Positions 7,092-15,789 of a stretch of DNA of 61,244 nucleotides are shown piece by piece. Position 1 is the stretch's first letter. Each line of letters begins with the position of its first letter. Made by a program: the position numbers and the translations under genes. The DNA comes from Nitratireductor soli (GTDB taxonomy: Bacteria > Pseudomonadota > Alphaproteobacteria > Rhizobiales > Rhizobiaceae), in the NCBI RefSeq assembly GCF_001050155.1, contig NZ_LFVY01000024.1, positions 1 through 61,244 on the forward strand, read 5' to 3'. The notes under the pieces are model-generated. The model saw nothing but the letters and a program-made list of their open reading frames with translations. It was not told the DNA's origin and did no database searches.

Positions 7092-8111
7092 ATGAAACTC
7101 GCCACGCTCAAGAATGGAAAGCGCGACGGAAGACTGGTCGTCGTCTCACGCGACCTGACCCGCTGCACCGACGCCTCGTTCCTGGCGCCGACGCTGCAGG
7201 CGGCGCTTGACGATTGGGCGCGCATCGCCCCGCATCTGGCAGCGCTCGCTGAAAGCCTGGAGCATGGCTCGGTGCCGGCGGAACGCTTTCACGAGCATGA
7301 TGCGGCATCGCCGCTGCCTCGCGCCTTCCAGTGGGCCGACGGATCGGCATACGTCAATCACGTCGAACTGGTGCGCAAGGCGCGCAGCGCGGAGATGCCC
7401 GACAGCTTCTGGACCGACCCGTTGATGTATCAGGGTGGCTCCGATGCCTTCCTCGCCCCGCGTGACCCGATCGTCATGGCCGACGAAGCCTATGGCATAG
7501 ACATGGAAGGCGAGGTGGCCGTCATCGTCGACGATGTGCCGATGGGCGCCAGCCTGGACGAGGCGCGTGATGCGATCCGGCTGATCATGCTGGTCAACGA
7601 CGTGTCGCTGCGTGGCCTGATTCCGGCGGAGCTCGCCAAGGGATTCGGCTTCTTCCAGTCGAAACCCTCTTCGGCGTTTTCACCCGTGGCGGTGACGCCG
7701 GACGAACTGGGCGAGGCCTGGGATGGCGGCAAGGTATCGCTGCCGCTGTGCGTCGACTACAATGGCAAGCCGTTCGGCCGCGCCAATGCCGGCATCGACA
7801 TGACCTTCGATTTCCCGACGCTTGTCGCCCATGCGGCCAAGACGCGGCCGCTCTGCGCCGGCGCGATCATTGGTTCGGGCACCGTTTCCAACAAGATGGA
7901 TGGCGGCCCCGGCAAGCCGGTGGCCGACGGTGGCGTCGGCTATTCCTGCATTGCAGAGACCCGCATGATCGAGACGATCAATGACGGCAAGCCGAAGACG
8001 CCCTTCATGCGCTTCGGCGACGTGGTGCGCATCGAGATGAAGGATGGCAGCGGCCATTCGATCTTCGGTGCGATCGAGCAGACAGTTCAGAAATACGAGA
8101 AAGGCGCGTAA
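7092..8111 (+). CDS. Fumarylacetoacetate hydrolase family protein
   Basis: This 339-residue protein belongs to the FAH family and most likely hydrolyses fumarylacetoacetate to fumarate and acetoacetate, the final step of tyrosine degradation. The metal site region is visible in DMEGEVAVIVDDV near residue 135-150 and the conserved C-terminal fold in IIGSGTVSNK and YSCIAETRMIE. The protein is shorter than the mammalian fumarylacetoacetase (about 420) and matches the compact form common in alphaproteobacteria. AAGGAAAAC precedes the ATG. It lies 10 bases after the MBL gene and its stop overlaps the next start (TAATG). FAH relatives also act on other diketo acids; the hmgA context decides this call. 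Confidence 0.9.
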   Translation: MKLATLKNGKRDGRLVVVSRDLTRCTDASFLAPTLQAALDDWARIAPHLAALAESLEHGSVPAERFHEHDAASPLPRAFQWADGSAYVNHVELVRKARSAEMPDSFWTDPLMYQGGSDAFLAPRDPIVMADEAYGIDMEGEVAVIVDDVPMGASLDEARDAIRLIMLVNDVSLRGLIPAELAKGFGFFQSKPSSAFSPVAVTPDELGEAWDGGKVSLPLCVDYNGKPFGRANAGIDMTFDFPTLVAHAAKTRPLCAGAIIGSGTVSNKMDGGPGKPVADGGVGYSCIAETRMIETINDGKPKTPFMRFGDVVRIEMKDGSGHSIFGAIEQTVQKYEKGA

Positions 8112-9061
8112 TGGCCAAGCAATTCGCATCCGCAGGCGACCTGACGGAAAAGAAGATCTCGTTCGACGAGATCGGTCGGGATCTGTGGGCGTTCACCGCA
8201 GAAGGTGATCCCAATTCGGGCATCATCATCGGCGATGAATCGGTGATGGTGATCGAGGCGCAGGCAACGCCGCGGCTCGCCGAAAAGGTCATCGAGAAGG
8301 TGCGTACCGTCACCGACAAGCCGATCAGCCACCTGGTGCTGACCCACTACCACGCCGTGCGCGTGCTGGGCGCCTCGGCCTATCACGCGCCGACCGTGAT
8401 CATGAGCGACAAGGCGCGCGCCATGGTGGTGGAACGCGGCAAGGAGGACTGGGATTCGGAGTTCGTCCGCTTTCCGCGCCTGTTCCAGGGGCATGAATCG
8501 ATCCCCGGCCTGACCTGGCCGACGACAACCTTCTCCAGCTCGATGACGGTCTATCTCGGCAAGCGCCGGGTCGACCTGATGTTCCTCGGCCGCGCCCACA
8601 CGGCGGGCGACATCGTCGCCCATGTGCCCGACGCCAACGTCATGTTCACCGGCGACATCGTCGAATACCATTCGGCCTGCTATTGCGGCGACGGCCATTT
8701 CCACGACTGGCCGTCGACGCTGGAGGAAATCCGCTCGTTCGATCTCGACGCCATCGCGCCAGGCCGCGGCGCAGCACTTGTCGGCCAGGACATGGTCAAC
8801 GAGGCGCTCGACCGGACCGGCGATTTCGTGCTTTCCACCTATCAGCCGGTGGCGCGCGTGGCCCAGGGCGGCGGTTCGCTGAAGGAGGCCTGGGACGCCT
8901 GCCGGGCGGCCTGCGATCCGAAGTTCTCCGATTACGCGATCTACGAGCACTGCCTGCCGTTCAACGTGGCGCGCGCCTATGACGAGGCGCTCGGCATCGA
9001 CACGCCGCGCATCTGGACGGCGGAGCGCGACCGGCAGATGTGGGAAGCGCTGCAGGGGTGA
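8111..9061 (+). CDS. MBL-fold protein with a degenerate metal motif
   Basis: A 316-residue metallo-beta-lactamase-fold protein whose ATG overlaps the stop of the FAH gene by one base. The region that should read HxHxDH is LTHYHAVRVLGA: His79 and His81 are kept, but the following Asp and His are Val83 and Arg84. Later ligand positions remain recognisable in GRAHTAGD and FTGDIVEYHS, and Cys-rich CYCGDGH follows. The protein may therefore bind one metal ion, or use another ligand set, instead of the usual pair. There is no signal peptide. Its operon position points to aromatic acid catabolism. I do not assign a substrate. Confidence 0.85.
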   Translation: MAKQFASAGDLTEKKISFDEIGRDLWAFTAEGDPNSGIIIGDESVMVIEAQATPRLAEKVIEKVRTVTDKPISHLVLTHYHAVRVLGASAYHAPTVIMSDKARAMVVERGKEDWDSEFVRFPRLFQGHESIPGLTWPTTTFSSSMTVYLGKRRVDLMFLGRAHTAGDIVAHVPDANVMFTGDIVEYHSACYCGDGHFHDWPSTLEEIRSFDLDAIAPGRGAALVGQDMVNEALDRTGDFVLSTYQPVARVAQGGGSLKEAWDACRAACDPKFSDYAIYEHCLPFNVARAYDEALGIDTPRIWTAERDRQMWEALQG

Positions 9062-9082
9062 CTGCAGGAGCGATGGTCGCTT

Positions 9083-9108
9083 CCTTCTCCCCGCCTGCGG
9101 GGAGAAGG
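9083..9108. repeat. GC-rich hairpin between the MBL and hydroxylase genes
   Basis: CCTTCTCCCC at 9083-9092 pairs exactly with GGGGAGAAGG at 9099-9108 around a six-base loop. No run of T follows, so it is more likely one unit of the dispersed CTTCTCCCCG repeat family than a classical terminator. It could still reduce read-through into the hydroxylase gene. Confidence 0.55.
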
Positions 9109-9191
9109 GGCCTTGACGCTGGCGCTGAACTTGAAACAGGTTTGAGCTGTTTCTTCTCGCGAAGGAACGGCTGCAAGGGGGACGAAAGCCC

Positions 9192-10811
9192 ATGCCGCGT
9201 TATGAGTACAATCGCTTCCCGTACCGGACGCCGCCGGAGCTGACCGGCGGCCCTGCCGGGCAGCACAAGGCGGTCATCATCGGTGCGGGTCCGGTCGGGC
9301 TTGCGGCGGCCGTCGATCTTGCCCAGCGCGGCGTGCCGGTGGTGGTGCTCGACGACAACAATGTCGTCTCCATCGGCAGCCGGGCCATCTGCTGGTCGAA
9401 GCGCACGCTGGAGATCTTCGACCGCCTCGGCATCGGCGAGCGGATGGTGGACAAGGGCGTCACCTGGAAGGTGGGCCGGCTGTTTCACCGCGACCGCGAG
9501 GTCTGGAATTTCGACCTTTTGCCGGAGGAAGGCCACAAGATGCCGGCCTTCATCAATCTGCAGCAATATTACGTCGAGCAGTACCTGGTCGAGCGCGCCG
9601 CCGATTTCCCCGAGCTGATCGACCTGCGCTGGAACAACAAGGTCGCCTCGATCGAGCAGAAGGGCGGCGATGTGCGCCTCGGCGTCGAGACGCCGGACGG
9701 TCATTACCATATGGACGCCGCCTGGGTGATTGCCTGCGACGGCGCGCGCTCGCCCGCGCGCGCCATGCTTGGCCTCGATTTCGCGGGGCAGGTGTTCGAG
9801 GAACGCTTCCTGATCGCCGATGTGGAAATGAAGGCGGATTTCCCGTCCGAGCGCTGGTTCTGGTTCGAGCCGCCGTTCCACAACGGGCAGTCTGCGCTGC
9901 TGCACAAGCAGCCCGACAACATCTACCGCATCGACCTGCAGCTTGGCCCCGACGCCGACCCGGACGAGGAGAAGAAGCCGGAAAACGTCATCCCGCGCAT
10001 CGAGAAGGTGATCGGCCACGCCGATTTCGAACTCGACTGGGTGTCGGTCTACACCTTCCAGTGCCGCAGGTTGGAACGCTTCGTCCACGACCGGGTGATC
10101 TTCGCCGGCGATAGCGCCCACATCGTCTCGCCCTTCGGCGCGCGCGGCGGCAATGGCGGCATCCAGGACATCGACAATCTCGGCTGGAAGCTGGCGATGG
10201 TGGTGCAGGGCGAGGCGCCGGCCTCGCTGATCGCCTCGTATGACGAGGAGCGCATCCACGGCACCGACGAGAACATCCTGAATTCGGCGCGCTCCACATC
10301 CTTCATGACGCCGAAGAGCGCCATGGAGCGGATTTTCCGCGACAGCGTCCTGGAGCTTTCGGCCGACCATGATTTTGCCCGGCGGCTGGTCAATTCCGGC
10401 CGCTTGTCGAAGCCGTGTTCCCTGGCCGGATTTTCGCTGCAGACGCCTTGCGGACATGCCGGCGGGCTGGCGCCGGGCGCGGTCATGGCCGATGCGCCGG
10501 TGCTTGCCGAGGGCGCCGGAGACTGGTTGTTGAACCATGCGGGCGGCGGCTTCGTGCTGCTCGCCGTCGATTGCGATCCGCCGATCGGCCTGCCGGCCGG
10601 CCTGCATGTGGTGCAGGTGTCGGCGGGCGCCGGCGGCGAGGCGGTGGAGGGGGTTACCCGGCTGGTCGATGTGGACGGCACCGTCGCGGCGCGTTACGGC
10701 GCGGGCCGGCTCTATCTGGTGCGGCCTGACCAGCACATCGCCGCCGCGTTCGAGCACCCGGATGCGCATGAGATCGCCGCCGCCATGACGCGGGCCATGG
10801 GGAGGGAATGA
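9192..10811 (+). CDS. FAD-dependent aromatic hydroxylase (3-hydroxyphenylacetate hydroxylase-like)
   Basis: A 539-residue class A flavoprotein monooxygenase. The FAD-binding Rossmann motif GAGPVG is at residues 31-36. The second FAD motif is FAGDSAHIVSPFGARGGNGG near residue 305. A C-terminal thioredoxin-like tail typical of the PheA/MhpA group follows. AAGGGGGAC precedes the ATG. It lies downstream of hmgA and overlaps a small DUF2783 gene. In Pseudomonas putida U, 3-hydroxyphenylacetate is turned into homogentisate by a flavoprotein (MhaA) plus a small coupling protein (MhaB). The same arrangement next to hmgA makes that the leading idea here. Other phenolic substrates, such as 3-hydroxyphenylpropionate, cannot be excluded. 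Confidence 0.8.
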   Translation: MPRYEYNRFPYRTPPELTGGPAGQHKAVIIGAGPVGLAAAVDLAQRGVPVVVLDDNNVVSIGSRAICWSKRTLEIFDRLGIGERMVDKGVTWKVGRLFHRDREVWNFDLLPEEGHKMPAFINLQQYYVEQYLVERAADFPELIDLRWNNKVASIEQKGGDVRLGVETPDGHYHMDAAWVIACDGARSPARAMLGLDFAGQVFEERFLIADVEMKADFPSERWFWFEPPFHNGQSALLHKQPDNIYRIDLQLGPDADPDEEKKPENVIPRIEKVIGHADFELDWVSVYTFQCRRLERFVHDRVIFAGDSAHIVSPFGARGGNGGIQDIDNLGWKLAMVVQGEAPASLIASYDEERIHGTDENILNSARSTSFMTPKSAMERIFRDSVLELSADHDFARRLVNSGRLSKPCSLAGFSLQTPCGHAGGLAPGAVMADAPVLAEGAGDWLLNHAGGGFVLLAVDCDPPIGLPAGLHVVQVSAGAGGEAVEGVTRLVDVDGTVAARYGAGRLYLVRPDQHIAAAFEHPDAHEIAAAMTRAMGRE

Positions 10812-11239: not shown

Positions 11240-11734
11240 TCAGTCCTTGTCTTCGCGCACGGCGATGGCTTCCACCTCGATCAGCCAGCCGGGATTGGCG
11301 AGGCCGGCGACCTGGAACACGGAGCGGGCCGGCAGGTTCGGCTGCGCCTCGGTGCCGAAGAACTCGGTATAGCCCTTCATGAAGCCGGCGAAATCCATCG
11401 GCTTGCCGTCCTGGCCGACCAGGTAGACCTGCAGCTTGACGATGTCGCCGATGCCGAGGTCCATCTCCTTCAGCGAGGTCTCGATGGCCTGGAAGACGGT
11501 GCGCGTCTGCTCGGTCATGTCGCCATAGGCGGCCAGCGAGCCGCGCTCGGCGTCCTGGTTGACGACGGCGGGCACCGCGCCGCTCAGATAGATCGTCGTC
11601 GCATCGGCGGGTACTTCGACGGCGCGCGCGATGGGGAAGTCCGAGCCCGGAATCTTGTGCCGGACGACCGGGTCGGCCTGGGCTGCTCCGGCGAGAAGGA
11701 CGGCGCCGGTCAGGAGGCTGGCGAAACGGATCAT
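11240..11734 (-). CDS. Exported RidA/YjgF-family imine deaminase
   Basis: A 164-residue Rid-family protein with an N-terminal signal peptide (MIRFASLLTGAVLLAGAAQA, cleavage near residue 20), which is unusual because most Rid proteins are cytoplasmic. The catalytic arginine of the active subgroup is kept as Arg137 in LPARSVFQVAGL, followed by the acidic pair in IEVEAIA. AAAGGAG precedes the ATG. Rid enzymes hydrolyse reactive enamines and imines to ketones and ammonia. Here the gene is last in a three-gene set after a flavin amine oxidase, whose product is an imine, and a cytochrome c. I infer that it clears that imine in the periplasm. The exact substrate is unknown. Confidence 0.88.
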   Translation of the reverse strand: MIRFASLLTGAVLLAGAAQADPVVRHKIPGSDFPIARAVEVPADATTIYLSGAVPAVVNQDAERGSLAAYGDMTEQTRTVFQAIETSLKEMDLGIGDIVKLQVYLVGQDGKPMDFAGFMKGYTEFFGTEAQPNLPARSVFQVAGLANPGWLIEVEAIAVREDKD

Positions 11735-11811
11735 GGAAATCTCCTTTGAAAGTGAAGCGGAAATGAAAAAGCCGCGCCGCCGCGGCGGCGCGGGTGGACC
11801 TTCGTCGGCGA

Positions 11812-12219
11812 CTATGGCCGCGATGCGGCGACGTCCTCGGCCGTCGTCTCGCCGGCATATCCGTTGCCGAAACCGGTCTGGATGTAGTTGATCACGTCGG
11901 CGACCTGCTGGTCGTCGAGGATCGCGCCGAGCGGCGGCATGGCCTTCTGGCCGTTGAGGATGATGAACATCGGATATTCGGGGTATTCGAGGTTCTCGTT
12001 TCCGGCGAGCGCCGGGTAGGCGCCGGCGCCGATAGCGCCCGCGCCCTCCGGCATGTGACAGCCGCTGCAGACGGCGTTGTAGACATTCTCACCGCCGGTG
12101 ACGGTGATCTTGCTCGGGTCGCTGAACAATGCGCCGTCCTGGGCGCCGTCCTGGGCGAGCGCAGGTGTCACGGCGATGATGGATGCGGCGATGCATAAGC
12201 CGGCTGCTATGGTTTGCAT
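11812..12219 (-). CDS. Periplasmic mono-haem cytochrome c
   Basis: A 135-residue class I cytochrome c. The signal peptide ends around ALAQ at residue 23. The haem is attached at CSGCH (51-55) and Met94 in KAMPPLG is the likely sixth ligand. The start at 12219 is chosen because AAGGAGAACCCC precedes it and it gives a clean signal peptide; the open frame continues upstream without support. The gene lies 26 bases downstream of the flavin amine oxidase gene, so it probably accepts electrons from that enzyme and passes them to a terminal oxidase. The nicotine-degrading enzyme NicA2, a flavin amine oxidase relative that uses a cytochrome c, is the precedent. Confidence 0.9.
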   Translation of the reverse strand: MQTIAAGLCIAASIIAVTPALAQDGAQDGALFSDPSKITVTGGENVYNAVCSGCHMPEGAGAIGAGAYPALAGNENLEYPEYPMFIILNGQKAMPPLGAILDDQQVADVINYIQTGFGNGYAGETTAEDVAASRP

Positions 12220-12245
12220 GGGGTTCTCCTTTGCAAATGTGGCGA

Positions 12246-13832
12246 TCAGCCGTTGATGACGCGGTTGTGCAGGCGGGAAATGGCGTCGAGGCCGGAAAGG
12301 AGCGCGCCCTCCTGCCAGGCCGGCAGATAGGAGATGTGCTCGCCGGCCATCAGGATGCGGCCGTCGATCTTGGTCGCCTTCTCGTAATCGGCCTCCTTGT
12401 CCTTCCAGATGCCGTAGCAGCCGAGCACCCAGGGCACGCGGTGCCACGCGACGCTGACGCCGTTCGAGAACTCGTCCTTGTATTGCGGGTGGATCATCGC
12501 GCCGTATTCGACGGCCTTCTTGATCCGCTCTTCCGGCGACAGCGCATTGAACTGATAGGCGGTCGCGCCCCAGCTGTAGCCGCCGAGCAGCACGCCCTTG
12601 CCGGTCGAGAAATAATCGCCGGACGGATAGCTGATCAGCGCGATCGGCAGGTCCGTATAGGAAATGCCGCCATAGATGCGCTCATCCTCTTCCCAGAAGC
12701 GGCGGTTGAATTCGAGGCCGAACTTCACCGAGCCGGCATAGTACATCGAATCGATGATGCCCTTCATCTCGCCCGACAGATTGTTCTCGATCTGGCCGAG
12801 GATGGAGAAGGGGATGGTGCACAGGCACCAATCGGCCTTGGCCTCCTGCGTGCCGCCCTGGCCGCCCGTGTCCTCGTAGGTGACCGTGACGCCGTTGTCG
12901 TCCTGGTTGATCGCCGTGACCTTGGCGTTGAACCGGATCAGGTCCTTGATCTCGCGCTCGAAGGCCTGGGCGATCATGTCCATGCCGCCGACCGGCTGGA
13001 AGATGGTCTGCTGGTGCTCGGCCGATTCGGCATCGTCGAGCCACTGCCACAGGCGCGACTGCAGGATCTGGCTCGGATCGATCGGATCGGAGGGGATGGG
13101 GGCGGCACCCGAGCCGCCGCCCGGCCATTTCTGGTAGCCGCGATAGTCGCTCGTGTGCTCGCTTTTGACATAGGCGTAATCCTTGTCGAGCACGCCGTAG
13201 ATGCGCAGCGATTCGAGCAGCATTTCCTTGTCTTCCTGGCTGACCATCTCGTCCAGCTTGCCCTGGTTGGCCGCCTTGGCCAGCAGCTCGGAGGTCTGGC
13301 CGCGATAGTCGGTGGCGATGTCGCGGAAGCGCTGCGGCTTGCCGTCGAAGGCTTTCGTGGAGTGGAGGAGGGCGTTGTGGTTCTTCTGGATGAACGGCTC
13401 GAGCTTGACGCCGAGGCGCTTGCAATAGTCGAGGACGGCGTGGTGATGATAGGGGATGCGCCAGGGGCCGGGATTGAAGTAGTTGCCTTCCGCGAATCCG
13501 ACATCCTGCTTGAAGCCGCCGAGCTCGGTGTAGCTGTCGCCGCCGCGTAAGGTCCAGCAGCGCCCGCCGGCCTTTTCGCGGAACTCGAGCACCTCGACCG
13601 TATAGCCGGCTGCCCGTAACTCCAGAGCGGCGACCATGCCGGCGAGGCCGGCGCCGAGGATCAGCACCTTCGCGCCCTTGGGATCGCCGTCCAGCTTGAC
13701 CGGTCCCTGATAGGTGGATTCCTGTGCGTGGCCCAGTGTGGTCATCGCCTGATAGAGGGCCGCCCCTCCGGCTGTCGCGCCGATCATCGTTAAGAGATCG
13801 CGCCGAGACATTTGTCCAAACGTGCGTTGCAT
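12246..13832 (-). CDS. Tat-exported flavin monoamine oxidase/dehydrogenase
   Basis: A 528-residue protein of the flavin amine oxidase superfamily. It starts with a twin-arginine signal (SRRDLLTMIGATAGG, residues 9-23, cleavage near HAQ 35-37), so it is exported folded with its FAD. The FAD motif GAGLAG is at 60-65, with Glu83 and GGR at 89-91. Length fits L-amino-acid oxidase and tryptophan 2-monooxygenase relatives. AAAGGAG precedes the ATG. The following cytochrome c gene suggests it works as a dehydrogenase that donates electrons to cytochrome c rather than to oxygen. The terminal RidA gene suggests an imine product. The amine or amino-acid substrate cannot be read from the sequence; hpd upstream makes an aromatic amine or amino acid plausible. 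Confidence 0.88.
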   Translation of the reverse strand: MQRTFGQMSRRDLLTMIGATAGGAALYQAMTTLGHAQESTYQGPVKLDGDPKGAKVLILGAGLAGMVAALELRAAGYTVEVLEFREKAGGRCWTLRGGDSYTELGGFKQDVGFAEGNYFNPGPWRIPYHHHAVLDYCKRLGVKLEPFIQKNHNALLHSTKAFDGKPQRFRDIATDYRGQTSELLAKAANQGKLDEMVSQEDKEMLLESLRIYGVLDKDYAYVKSEHTSDYRGYQKWPGGGSGAAPIPSDPIDPSQILQSRLWQWLDDAESAEHQQTIFQPVGGMDMIAQAFEREIKDLIRFNAKVTAINQDDNGVTVTYEDTGGQGGTQEAKADWCLCTIPFSILGQIENNLSGEMKGIIDSMYYAGSVKFGLEFNRRFWEEDERIYGGISYTDLPIALISYPSGDYFSTGKGVLLGGYSWGATAYQFNALSPEERIKKAVEYGAMIHPQYKDEFSNGVSVAWHRVPWVLGCYGIWKDKEADYEKATKIDGRILMAGEHISYLPAWQEGALLSGLDAISRLHNRVING

Positions 13833-14003: not shown

Positions 14004-14034
14004 CAAAAGAAAAGGGCCGCTGAAAGCGGCCCTT
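14004..14034 (-). terminator. Rho-independent terminator of hpd
   Basis: Read on the minus strand, a hairpin with stem AAGGGCCGC/GCGGCCCTT (14012-14034, loop of five) is followed at once by TTTTCTTTT. It lies 29 bases beyond the hpd stop, so it separates hpd from the amine oxidase genes, which must have their own promoter in 13833-14003. Confidence 0.85.
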
Positions 14035-14062: not shown

Positions 14063-15175
14063 CTATTCGGCGGCGTCCACCTTGATCACGCCGCGGCGGA
14101 TCTGGTCTTCCTCGATGCTCTCGAACAGGGCGCGGAAATTGCCCTCGCCGAATCCCTCGTCGCCCTTACGCTGGATGAACTCGAAGAAGATCGGCCCGAT
14201 GACCGTCCTGGAGAAGATCTGCAGCAGGATCTTGGTCATGCCGCCGTTCACCACGCCCTCGCCGTCGATCAGGATGCCGTGTTTCTTCATCCGCTCGATC
14301 GGTTCGTCATGGCCGGAGACGCGCTCGTGGCTGCGCGCGTAATAGGTCTCGGGAGGGCCCGGCATGAATTTCAGCCCGTTTGCCGCCAGCTTGTCGGTGG
14401 CGTCGTAGATCCCGTCCGTGCCGACGGCGATGTGCTGGATGCCTTCGCCCTTGTACTTCTTCAGATACTCGACGATCTGGCTGGTCTCGTCCTTCGATTC
14501 GTTCAGCGGGATGCGGATCTTGCCGCAGGCCGAGGTGATCGCCCGGCTGACGAGGCCGGTGATGCGGCCGTCGATGTCGAAATAGTGGATCTGCGTGAAG
14601 CCGAACAGATCGCGATAGAACGCCCACCACTTGTCCATGTTGCCGCGATAGACATTGTGGGTGAGGTGGTCGAGATAGTAGAAGCCGACGCCTTCCGGCC
14701 GCGGGTTCTTCGCGCCGGTCCACTCGAACTCGGCCTCGTAGGGCGAACCCTTCTCGCCATAGGTGTCGACGAAATAGATCAGTGAGCCGCCGATGCCGAC
14801 GATGGCCGGCACGTCGAGCGCCTTGTCGCCGCCGGTATACGCCTCGGCGCCCTTCGAGACCGCGTGCCGCAGCGCGTGCTGCGCATCGACCACGCGCCAG
14901 GCCATCGACGGCGCGCAGGGGCCATGCTCGTCGACGAAGCGCATCGCATGGCTGCCGGGCTCGGCATTCAGGACGTAGTTGATGTCGCCCTGGCGCCAGA
15001 CGGAGATGTTCTTCGTCTTGTGGCGGGCGACCTCGGCATAGCCCATCCTGGTGAACAGCTCGGTGAGCTTTTCCGGTTCCGGATGGGCGAATTCGACGAA
15101 TTCGAAGCCGTCCGTGCCGGCGGGGTTCGTCTCGGTGATCTCGGCGGGCGGCGCGTCGTGCGGGAATGGGCCCAT
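14063..15175 (-). CDS. hpd: 4-hydroxyphenylpyruvate dioxygenase
   Basis: This 370-residue non-haem iron enzyme converts 4-hydroxyphenylpyruvate to homogentisate, feeding HmgA. The metal ligands are visible as His170 in YLDHLTHNV, His248 in IQHIAVGT and Glu332 in IFFEFIQRKGD. The C-terminal GFGEGNFRALFES is diagnostic. I start at 15175, where GGAGGAG lies about eight bases upstream and the length becomes the usual 370; the frame runs on upstream without support. It is divergent from an Lrp-type regulator and ends in a strong terminator. It is therefore transcribed apart from the hmgA operon about 8 kb away. Confidence 0.96.
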   Translation of the reverse strand: MGPFPHDAPPAEITETNPAGTDGFEFVEFAHPEPEKLTELFTRMGYAEVARHKTKNISVWRQGDINYVLNAEPGSHAMRFVDEHGPCAPSMAWRVVDAQHALRHAVSKGAEAYTGGDKALDVPAIVGIGGSLIYFVDTYGEKGSPYEAEFEWTGAKNPRPEGVGFYYLDHLTHNVYRGNMDKWWAFYRDLFGFTQIHYFDIDGRITGLVSRAITSACGKIRIPLNESKDETSQIVEYLKKYKGEGIQHIAVGTDGIYDATDKLAANGLKFMPGPPETYYARSHERVSGHDEPIERMKKHGILIDGEGVVNGGMTKILLQIFSRTVIGPIFFEFIQRKGDEGFGEGNFRALFESIEEDQIRRGVIKVDAAE

Positions 15176-15321
15176 GGGATAAACTCCTCCTGTGGCGGGA
15201 CAATTCGGTGCGCTGCGGCACCTTTTCCCTATTATAGGCTCGCAGCCTCGCAAGCGGCTTGCATTCTGGGGCATGTTTTGTGCTAAATATGCGTACTTTG
15301 TGCAGGCATAAGGAAAATTGC
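15176..15321. promoter_or_regulatory. Divergent control region hpd/lrp-like
   Basis: This 146-base gap carries both promoters. The hpd ribosome site GGAGGAG is at about 15184-15190 (minus strand), and AAGGA at 15310-15314 serves the regulator. The AT-rich part TTTGTGCTAAATATGCGTAC around 15279-15298 is a plausible promoter and Lrp binding area. No single clear operator stands out. Confidence 0.4.
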
Positions 15322-15789
15322 ATGGCGGAAGCACGGATTGATGGTTATGACCGCAAGATACTGTCTCTGTTGCAGGTGGACGCGCGGCTGACCAACAACG
15401 ATCTGTCGGAGCGGGTGAACCTGTCGCCGTCGCAGTGCTCGCGCCGCCGCCAGCGGCTCGAGGAGGAAGGCTATATCCGCGGCTATGTGGCGATGCTCGA
15501 CCGCGACCGGCTGGGGTTTCCGCTGGTCAACATCATCACGGTGACGCTCGCCACCCACAATCCCGACAATGCGCGCCGCTTCGGCGAGCTTCTGGCGCGC
15601 CTGCCCGAGGTTCAGGAGGCGCACGCCCTGACCGGCGAGATGGATTACATCCTGAAGGTCGTCACGCCCGATCTCAAATCCCTGTCCGCATTCGTCAACG
15701 GCGTGCTGCTGCCGCATGAATCCGTGCAGCACGTCAAGAGCGCCATTGTGCTGGAGACCTTGAAGGAAACCGGCGCCCTGCCGCTGTGA
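15322..15789 (+). CDS. Lrp/AsnC-family transcriptional regulator
   Basis: A 155-residue feast/famine regulator. The N-terminal helix-turn-helix is seen in DRKILSLLQVDARLTNNDLSERVNLSPSQCSRR and the C-terminal RAM ligand domain in LVNIITVTLATHN...EVQEAHALTGEMDYILKV. The start is set at 15322, which has AAGGA seven bases upstream and matches the family N-terminus; 21 upstream codons in frame are ignored. It is divergent from hpd, so the simplest role is control of hpd and itself by an aromatic amino acid such as tyrosine or phenylalanine. This resembles known Lrp-type regulators beside hpd in other bacteria, but the ligand is inferred. Confidence 0.92.
   Translation: MAEARIDGYDRKILSLLQVDARLTNNDLSERVNLSPSQCSRRRQRLEEEGYIRGYVAMLDRDRLGFPLVNIITVTLATHNPDNARRFGELLARLPEVQEAHALTGEMDYILKVVTPDLKSLSAFVNGVLLPHESVQHVKSAIVLETLKETGALPL

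Follow-up and report, generated by a model that had tools for sequence, protein, structure and literature searches.

A conserved flavoprotein, cytochrome c and Rid cassette in Nitratireductor soli, probably for periplasmic L-amino acid deamination

The gene trio and its conservation

The window analysed here is a 61,244-nucleotide stretch of DNA from Nitratireductor soli (contig NZ_LFVY01000024.1), and our subject is a trio of adjacent minus-strand genes at 11240-13832. They encode a flavin amine oxidoreductase (the flavoprotein), a mono-haem cytochrome c and a protein of the Rid family. A sequence-only reading of the window had picked out this trio, and the open reading frames (ORFs) stand where it placed them, with Pfam matches over cut-off. 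The features are as follows (aa, amino acids; Tat, twin-arginine translocation; Sec, general secretory pathway).

12246-13832, minus strand: flavoprotein (flavin amine oxidoreductase), 528 aa; PF01593 Amino_oxidase, 194.9 bits, over cut-off
13725-13832, minus strand: Tat-type signal region of the flavoprotein, SRRDLLTMIGATAGG, read from sequence
11812-12219, minus strand: mono-haem cytochrome c, 135 aa; PF13442 Cytochrome_CBB3, 52.8 bits, over cut-off (scored with a longer N-terminus than the 135-aa ORF)
12055-12069, minus strand: haem-attachment motif CXXCH, here CSGCH, cytochrome c residues 51-55, read from sequence
11240-11734, minus strand: Rid protein, nearest the Rid3 subfamily, 164 aa; PF01042 Ribonuc_L-PSP, 70.5 bits, over cut-off
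11672-11734, minus strand: Sec-type signal peptide of the Rid, read from sequence
11324-11326, minus strand: codon of Rid Arg137; Arg aligned in 121/121 Rids
11772-11793, minus strand: terminator-like hairpin in the cytochrome c/Rid gap, 9 G-C pairs then CTTTTTCATT

The flavoprotein and cytochrome genes are 26 bp apart and the cytochrome and Rid genes 77 bp, the hairpin in the second gap appearing in the fold of an 81-nt stretch (z -1.87). The flavoprotein carries SRRDLLTMIGATAGGAALYQAM, with SRRDLLTMIGATAGG close to its start, and the N-terminus of the Rid reads MIRFASLLTGAVLLAGAAQA. The cytochrome has a Sec-like start, MQTIAAGLCIAASIIAVTPALA, and a single CSGCH; together with the PF13442 match, these bear out the proposal that it is an exported mono-haem cytochrome c.

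To follow the gene order we pooled loci L011-L181, L182, L185, L186 and L187 and dropped repeats of the same flavoprotein. This gave 162 distinct loci, a set biased to close relatives of the window in which many loci have only 1.5 kb of flank. Under a motif-based rule (a same-strand ORF with CXXCH), a haem ORF lies downstream of the flavoprotein in 135/162 relatives, every one starting within 200 bp, and a Rid gene is found in 121/162. At 50% flavoprotein identity or more, the haem ORF is present in 122/124 loci and the Rid in 93/124, many of these loci having a flank too short for the Rid; below 50% the counts are 13/38 and 28/38. Among distinct loci with at least 50% identity and at least 2.5 kb downstream (full-flank loci), 54/69 have a Rid. 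A tblastn search of an earlier set with cytochrome queries found a match in 114/116 loci at or above 50% identity and in 4/28 below. Loci L200-L208 have an in-frame CXXCH behind the flavoprotein in 6/9 cases and a Rid in 2/9, one being the locus of L100 (an uncultured Sulfitobacter) again. The trio is a conserved cassette, not a chance arrangement: poor conservation of the gene order did not appear in this search, and the comparative evidence supports the earlier view that the flavoprotein forms a single exported unit with a cytochrome and a Rid of its own.

The distribution of the cassette is patchy. Using the flavoprotein as query at cut-offs of 1e-60 or 1e-50, we searched overlapping genome samples and found relatives in 8/397 genomes of the order, 23/297 of the family and 27/398 of the phylum, and in 23/244 genomes of the order of G929, 19/198 of its family and 3/229 of the class of G805. 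At least 541 stretches of named genomes hold a flavoprotein relative, of which the best 80 were kept, and 36 plasmid records hold one at E <= 1e-60. Among those best 80, the nearest relatives are in Nitratireductor (82% and 77% identity); one genome of the same genus has a flavoprotein at 92%.

Some outlying loci are arranged differently. Where the cytochrome and Rid would stand, five distant relatives (L156, L157, L159, L160 and L161) have a downstream ORF of 134-141 aa; that of L157 looks exported and matches no Pfam family. Past this substitute ORF the distant relatives have a further ORF, AMP-dependent ligase-like in L164. On Komagataeibacter xylinus plasmid pGX5 (L183:2266-5426), transposition genes immediately precede a short cytochrome c ORF and a Rid, an arrangement that looks like loss of the flavoprotein gene.

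Protein families and export

The closest solved relative of the flavoprotein is 2jae, an L-amino acid oxidase (LAAO; 302 bits, E 7.2e-89), whose residues 6-486 align with flavoprotein residues 49-526; the next solved matches are ancestral and snake LAAOs. 2jae is the enzyme of Rhodococcus opacus, whose carboxylate ligands are Arg84 and Tyr371. By an eye reading of the 2jae alignment, these correspond to Arg125 and Tyr419 of the flavoprotein. Arg125 is present in 162/162 relatives; at position 419, 156 of them have Tyr and 5 Phe, with one gap. The sequence-only reading had instead seen a NicA2-type amine dehydrogenase, an identity that we rejected given the 302-bit homology to 2jae, with which the flavoprotein groups among the LAAOs. 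The NicA2 entry 7C4A is absent among the codes listed for the best 60 of 96 solved-structure matches; distance from NicA2 is judged here from this list of structure matches and not from a tree. By homology, then, the flavoprotein is an LAAO homologue and not NicA2-like, and because Arg125 and Tyr419 are also conserved, its substrate is likelier to be an L-amino acid than an amine of the NicA2 type. An AlphaFold model of the flavoprotein (11 sequences; mean predicted local distance difference test score 61.9) was of poor quality and was left unused.

Tat export of the flavoprotein, as first read, is upheld by the Arg-Arg motif and h-region in the window and by the aligned columns, in which the pair is Arg-Arg in 159/162 relatives, Lys-Arg in 2 and a gap in 1. 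The two loci with Lys-Arg (L047 and L144) retain the cytochrome, and no Rid was seen in them.

The nearest solved Rid proteins are PSPTO3006 (9bka, 122.6 bits) and PFL1385 (9bkc, 103.8 bits), the next scoring 36.2. Both are placed in Rid3 by PMC5619798, and the window Rid is, on this match, nearest to Rid3 proteins, a label that comes from these solved relatives and that paper's labels and not from a subfamily profile. The name RidA in the sequence-only reading is supported for the family (PF01042, 70.5 bits) but not for the archetypal RidA subfamily. The catalytic Arg137 of the window Rid is intact, as had been stated: the residue lies within PARSVFQV, falls in the same alignment column as the arginine in the solved Rid3 proteins and is found in 121/121 aligned trio Rids, as is Glu153, with Glu155 in 120/121. 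PMC5619798 reports that, when snake LAAO oxidises Leu, Gln, Phe, Met or His, PFL_1385 and PSPTO_3006 reduce the formation of semicarbazone; with them the rate for L-Phe falls from 21 to 3. A Rid 48% identical to that of the window also occurs in a 4.08 Mb Proteus mirabilis record labelled as a plasmid (L184, NZ_OL790811.1), at a locus without annotation.

Export of the Rids was scored by motif and a permissive home-made hydrophobicity rule, not by SignalP, considering only residues ahead of the Rid domain and allowing the start codon to lie anywhere within 75 residues upstream. By this rule 114 of the 121 trio Rids carry an extension that resembles a signal, 2 form fusions with a cytochrome and 5 show neither. 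One of these five (L158:747-1, minus strand) has an N-terminal hydrophobic anchor, not a cleavable signal, and adjoins a haem ORF in which CXXCH occurs twice. Counting it, 117/121 Rids look exported, and the Sec signal first noticed in the window is in this sense kept across relatives, alongside the Arg-Arg pair of the flavoprotein. As a control we scored the 15 other Rid paralogues of the window genome: 12 failed the rule, 1 passed and 2 were unmappable.

The two fusions come from marine Alphaproteobacteria, Oceanicola granulosus HTCC2516 (L092:9578-10654) and the uncultured Sulfitobacter (L100:9581-10552). Each is one open frame with a signal-like start, a cytochrome domain and a Rid domain, both domains over their Pfam cut-offs. 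Given that c-type cytochromes receive their haem outside the cytoplasm, the Rid domain of the fusions must lie outside as well. No fusion beyond that of L100 itself was found among 223 genomes of its family, in which the flavoprotein occurred in 9, at 9 loci with 1.5 kb flanks that may cut off the Rid. The linker of the L092 fusion is strongly acidic.

The remaining four Rids (L061, L062, L172 and L179) have no signal, fusion or anchor; they start like PSPTO_3006, their loci have no haem ORF, and the h-region of their flavoproteins holds 3-4 charges. The four form one clade, presumably Pseudomonas, in which export of both proteins appears to have been lost, with a relic Arg-Arg motif still present in the flavoprotein. 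As far as the sequences tell, export signals and cytochrome are missing together there. On a FastTree flavoprotein tree, which gave long-branch warnings, we count 4 changes of haem state and 2 of Rid export, with L158 counted as not exported.

Proposed mechanism and its alternatives

From the gene order, signals, residues, conservation and fusions described above, we infer catalysis, electron route, substrate and import as follows. The module probably carries out a periplasmic respiratory deamination of L-amino acids. The Tat-exported flavin adenine dinucleotide enzyme would bind the carboxylate of an L-amino acid via Arg125 and Tyr419 and oxidise it to the 2-imino acid; the mono-haem cytochrome c of the trio would accept the two electrons singly and hand them on to a cytochrome c oxidase, with peroxide formation largely avoided. 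The exported Rid3-type protein would hydrolyse the imino acid in the same compartment to the 2-oxo acid and ammonium and, in the window genome, the aryl pyruvate would be imported and catabolised. We put forward more tentatively, as a possibility at somewhat less than even chances, that a dedicated exported branch of bacterial Rid proteins joins a haem protein and a flavoprotein of LAAO type in a periplasmic complex that physically couples the removal of electrons to the hydrolysis of the imine.

The cytochrome itself has weak solved matches (33 to 27 bits) to the cytochrome subunits of quinone alcohol dehydrogenases (the best, 33), fructose dehydrogenases and p-cresol methylhydroxylase, and equally weak ones to those of cbb3 oxidases and copper nitrite reductases; nine of the relatives' haem ORFs have two CXXCH motifs. 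On Dinoroseobacter shibae plasmid pDSHI02 (L185:300-7033), coxB, ctaD, a hypothetical gene and an assembly gene precede the flavoprotein-cytochrome pair on one strand, with no Rid annotated at this locus. Among loci L011-L187 and L200 upward, whose flanks are mostly short, such cox genes adjoin the pair only in L185 and L204, which give identical matches. Stopped-flow work in PMC12224317 shows that Tat-exported flavin amine oxidases (FAOs) with an adjacent cytochrome c gene are dehydrogenases that use it, strongly in clades 2 and 3 and at low rates in clade 1, with rate constants of 10^4-10^6 per M per s, and that Tat-FAOs without one are mostly oxidases. Because the same paper holds that predicting the acceptor from sequence alone is unreliable, we infer, and do not assert, that electrons go to cytochrome c rather than to oxygen.

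Several points weigh against respiratory deamination by the trio. No haem ORF was detected in 27/162 relatives. The Rid is missing in 15/69 full-flank loci and in a close relative, Nitratireductor sp. B36 (L069), so that it is not strictly needed, and a terminator-like hairpin stands between cytochrome and Rid. A lysine linked to oxygen reactivity, Lys370 by alignment, is present in 162/162 relatives; it is likewise retained in NicA2 (PMC12224317). The four cases of joint loss are one clade and therefore count as one evolutionary event, and charges alone do not separate the groups: L166 has 3 charges and an exported Rid, and L087 has 3 charges and a cytochrome. Finally, 1/15 control paralogues passed the signal rule, two being unmappable.

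It could be that the flavoprotein is a periplasmic LAAO with oxygen as acceptor and peroxide as product, the cytochrome serving another step (peroxide removal, for example) and the Rid only clearing the imine. The nearest solved relatives are named oxidases and Lys370 is invariant, and an exported flavoprotein and Rid occur without a haem ORF in L057, L058, L067, L166, L173-L178, L180 and L181, in line with the mostly oxidase character of Tat-FAOs that have no cytochrome c (PMC12224317). However, the haem ORF stands directly behind the gene in 122/124 relatives of at least 50% identity and the D. shibae pair adjoins cytochrome oxidase genes, and we consider this alternative unlikely.

It is improbable that the Rid is an unrelated passenger, or cytoplasmic despite its N-terminus. 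The full-flank loci that have no Rid and the hairpin ahead of the gene would fit a passenger, but the Rid is next door in 121/162 relatives with its arginine in all, is naturally fused to an exported cytochrome, and differs from the 12/15 paralogues that fail the signal rule (1 passes, 2 unmappable). A non-amino-acid amine as substrate, as for NicA2 or Pnao, is very improbable: many public plasmid records label relatives flavin monoamine oxidase and NicA2-type operons share the Tat signal and cytochrome c, but the 302 bits to an LAAO, the lack of 7C4A among the codes listed for the best 60 of 96 matches, the invariant Arg125 and near-invariant Tyr419 (the equivalents of R. opacus Arg84/Tyr371) and the tryptophan phenotype of the Gluconacetobacter diazotrophicus operon described below all speak for an L-amino acid.

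Known systems and genome setting

The same three gene types are known from G. diazotrophicus PAL5, in which Rodrigues et al. 2016 (PMC5053998) reported the operon lao-cccA-ridA (GDI2456-2454); as in the window, the order is the same on one strand and the flavoprotein has a Tat signal. Tn5 in lao left ~96% fewer indolic compounds from tryptophan, which was largely unmetabolised, and lowered the transcripts of lao, cccA and ridA; this indicates co-transcription, whereas the window has a terminator-like hairpin before the Rid. The paper cites ccm mutants with 5% of wild-type indole-3-acetic acid (IAA) and conservation of the lao-cccA-ridA order in Caulobacter crescentus and Xanthomonas, and its authors propose a helper role for cytochrome c and RidA alongside the LAAO. 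This LAAO, which we liken to the window's by its published description, has 34% identity to that of R. opacus (a species name that also appears in the paper); its reaction is said there to form H2O2, and electron transfer to cytochrome c is mentioned as possible. Unlike the window trio, which adjoins tyrosine/homogentisate genes, the operon was studied for IAA from tryptophan, and the available text of PMC5053998 does not mention a signal peptide on its RidA, while the window Rid has one. Given this operon and the periplasmic LAO1 with LAO2/RIDA of Chlamydomonas (PMC10805672), the earlier statement that a partnership of such a flavoprotein with a periplasmic Rid was undescribed does not stand. 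The idea of a wholly undescribed module was likewise rejected, since lao-cccA-ridA had been reported.

Proteus-type membrane L-amino acid deaminases are linked to the respiratory chain; to our knowledge, they belong to a different flavoprotein family and have no dedicated cytochrome c. They are membrane-bound with a Tat peptide (PMC5651824). NicA2, Pnao, CycN and the other cytochrome c-using FAOs of PMC12224317 resemble the window in pairing a Tat-exported FAO with a Sec-exported cytochrome c; however, the window FAO is LAAO-type, and RidA and L-amino acid are absent from the main text of that paper. The Chlamydomonas system is similar in its periplasmic LAAO with a Rid, acting on extracellular L-amino acids, but it is eukaryotic and produces H2O2, and the available text of PMC10805672 mentions cytochrome c only for the G. 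diazotrophicus cluster. PFL_1385 and PSPTO_3006 (9bkc, 9bka), the closest solved Rids, hydrolyse LAAO-made imines of L-amino acids in vitro; they were assayed with snake LAAO and Pseudomonas aeruginosa DauA and not with such a partner, and "periplasm" and "signal" have 0 occurrences in PMC5619798. RidA genes, and in some cases Rid3 genes, are often found in clusters with genes for FAD amine oxidases (PMC4433059), a Rid6 role is predicted in a nicotine cluster (PMC7688666), and a Pseudoalteromonas LAAO gene cluster appears without Rid or cytochrome in the available text of PMC6316408.

In the open-access papers searched we found no statement that the bacterial Rid of such an operon is exported, no cytochrome-Rid fusion, no demonstration of cytochrome c use by this LAAO branch and no bacterial metabolite-repair enzyme tied to the respiratory chain outside the cytoplasm. 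Relative to the literature found, the additions seem to be the export of this Rid branch, its fusions to the cytochrome, the joint loss of cytochrome and export signals, and the location by tyrosine/homogentisate genes. The coupled periplasmic complex, if real, would add another FAO lineage with a respiratory L-amino acid dehydrogenase to those of PMC12224317 and would link a metabolite-repair enzyme to a respiratory chain outside the cytoplasm. If respiratory deamination is correct, further enzymes labelled amine or L-amino acid oxidases would be respiratory dehydrogenases through which energy is conserved from amino acids outside the cell, and imine clearance would operate outside the cytoplasm too. 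The question also bears on bacterial routes to indole-3-pyruvate and auxin. The three-gene system allows a direct test of whether the Rid acts in repair or as a catalyst of product release, for which the natural cytochrome-Rid fusions are ready objects.

In the window, the trio has hppD on one side and on the other a homogentisate cluster, which includes hmgA and a gene for a fumarylacetoacetate hydrolase; an Lrp/AsnC regulator and a tripartite ATP-independent periplasmic (TRAP) transporter lie past hppD:

14012-14034, minus strand: terminator-like hairpin in the hppD/flavoprotein gene gap, 10 pairs then TTCTTTT
14063-15175, minus strand: hppD, 4-hydroxyphenylpyruvate dioxygenase; TIGR01263, 397.9 bits, cut-off 277
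15319-15789, plus strand: Lrp/AsnC family regulator; PF01037, PF13412
16012-19079, plus strand: TRAP transporter DctP-DctQ-DctM; PF03480, PF04290, PF06808
4794-6209, plus strand: hmgA, homogentisate 1,2-dioxygenase; TIGR01015, 709.3 bits, cut-off 510.75; PF20510, PF04209
7092-8111, plus strand: fumarylacetoacetate hydrolase family protein; PF01557, 127.2 bits; PF18288, 97.6 bits

The hairpin at 14012-14034 suggests that the trio is transcribed separately from hppD. Since hppD, the homogentisate genes and the TRAP transporter adjoin the trio, the setting suggests tyrosine or phenylalanine as a main substrate in the window genome. A point that counts against this is that, among the best 80 of at least 541 named stretches, hppD is near the trio only in L068 and L069, so that the substrate assignment is a local one. 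L071 has an hmgA-like ORF, and an Aminobacter plasmid carries hppD-hmgA-maiA without the trio.

The window genome (5.1 Mb, 58 contigs) has 16 PF01042 matches and PF01593 at 7 places. It holds a single full-length match to the flavoprotein, the runner-up being a 43-residue segment of 19.5 bits. Beside the homogentisate genes, at 8111-10811 of the window, lie a metallo-beta-lactamase-fold protein, weakly resembling SoxH-related quinoprotein relay hydrolases (below cut-off), and a PRK08132-type FAD monooxygenase.

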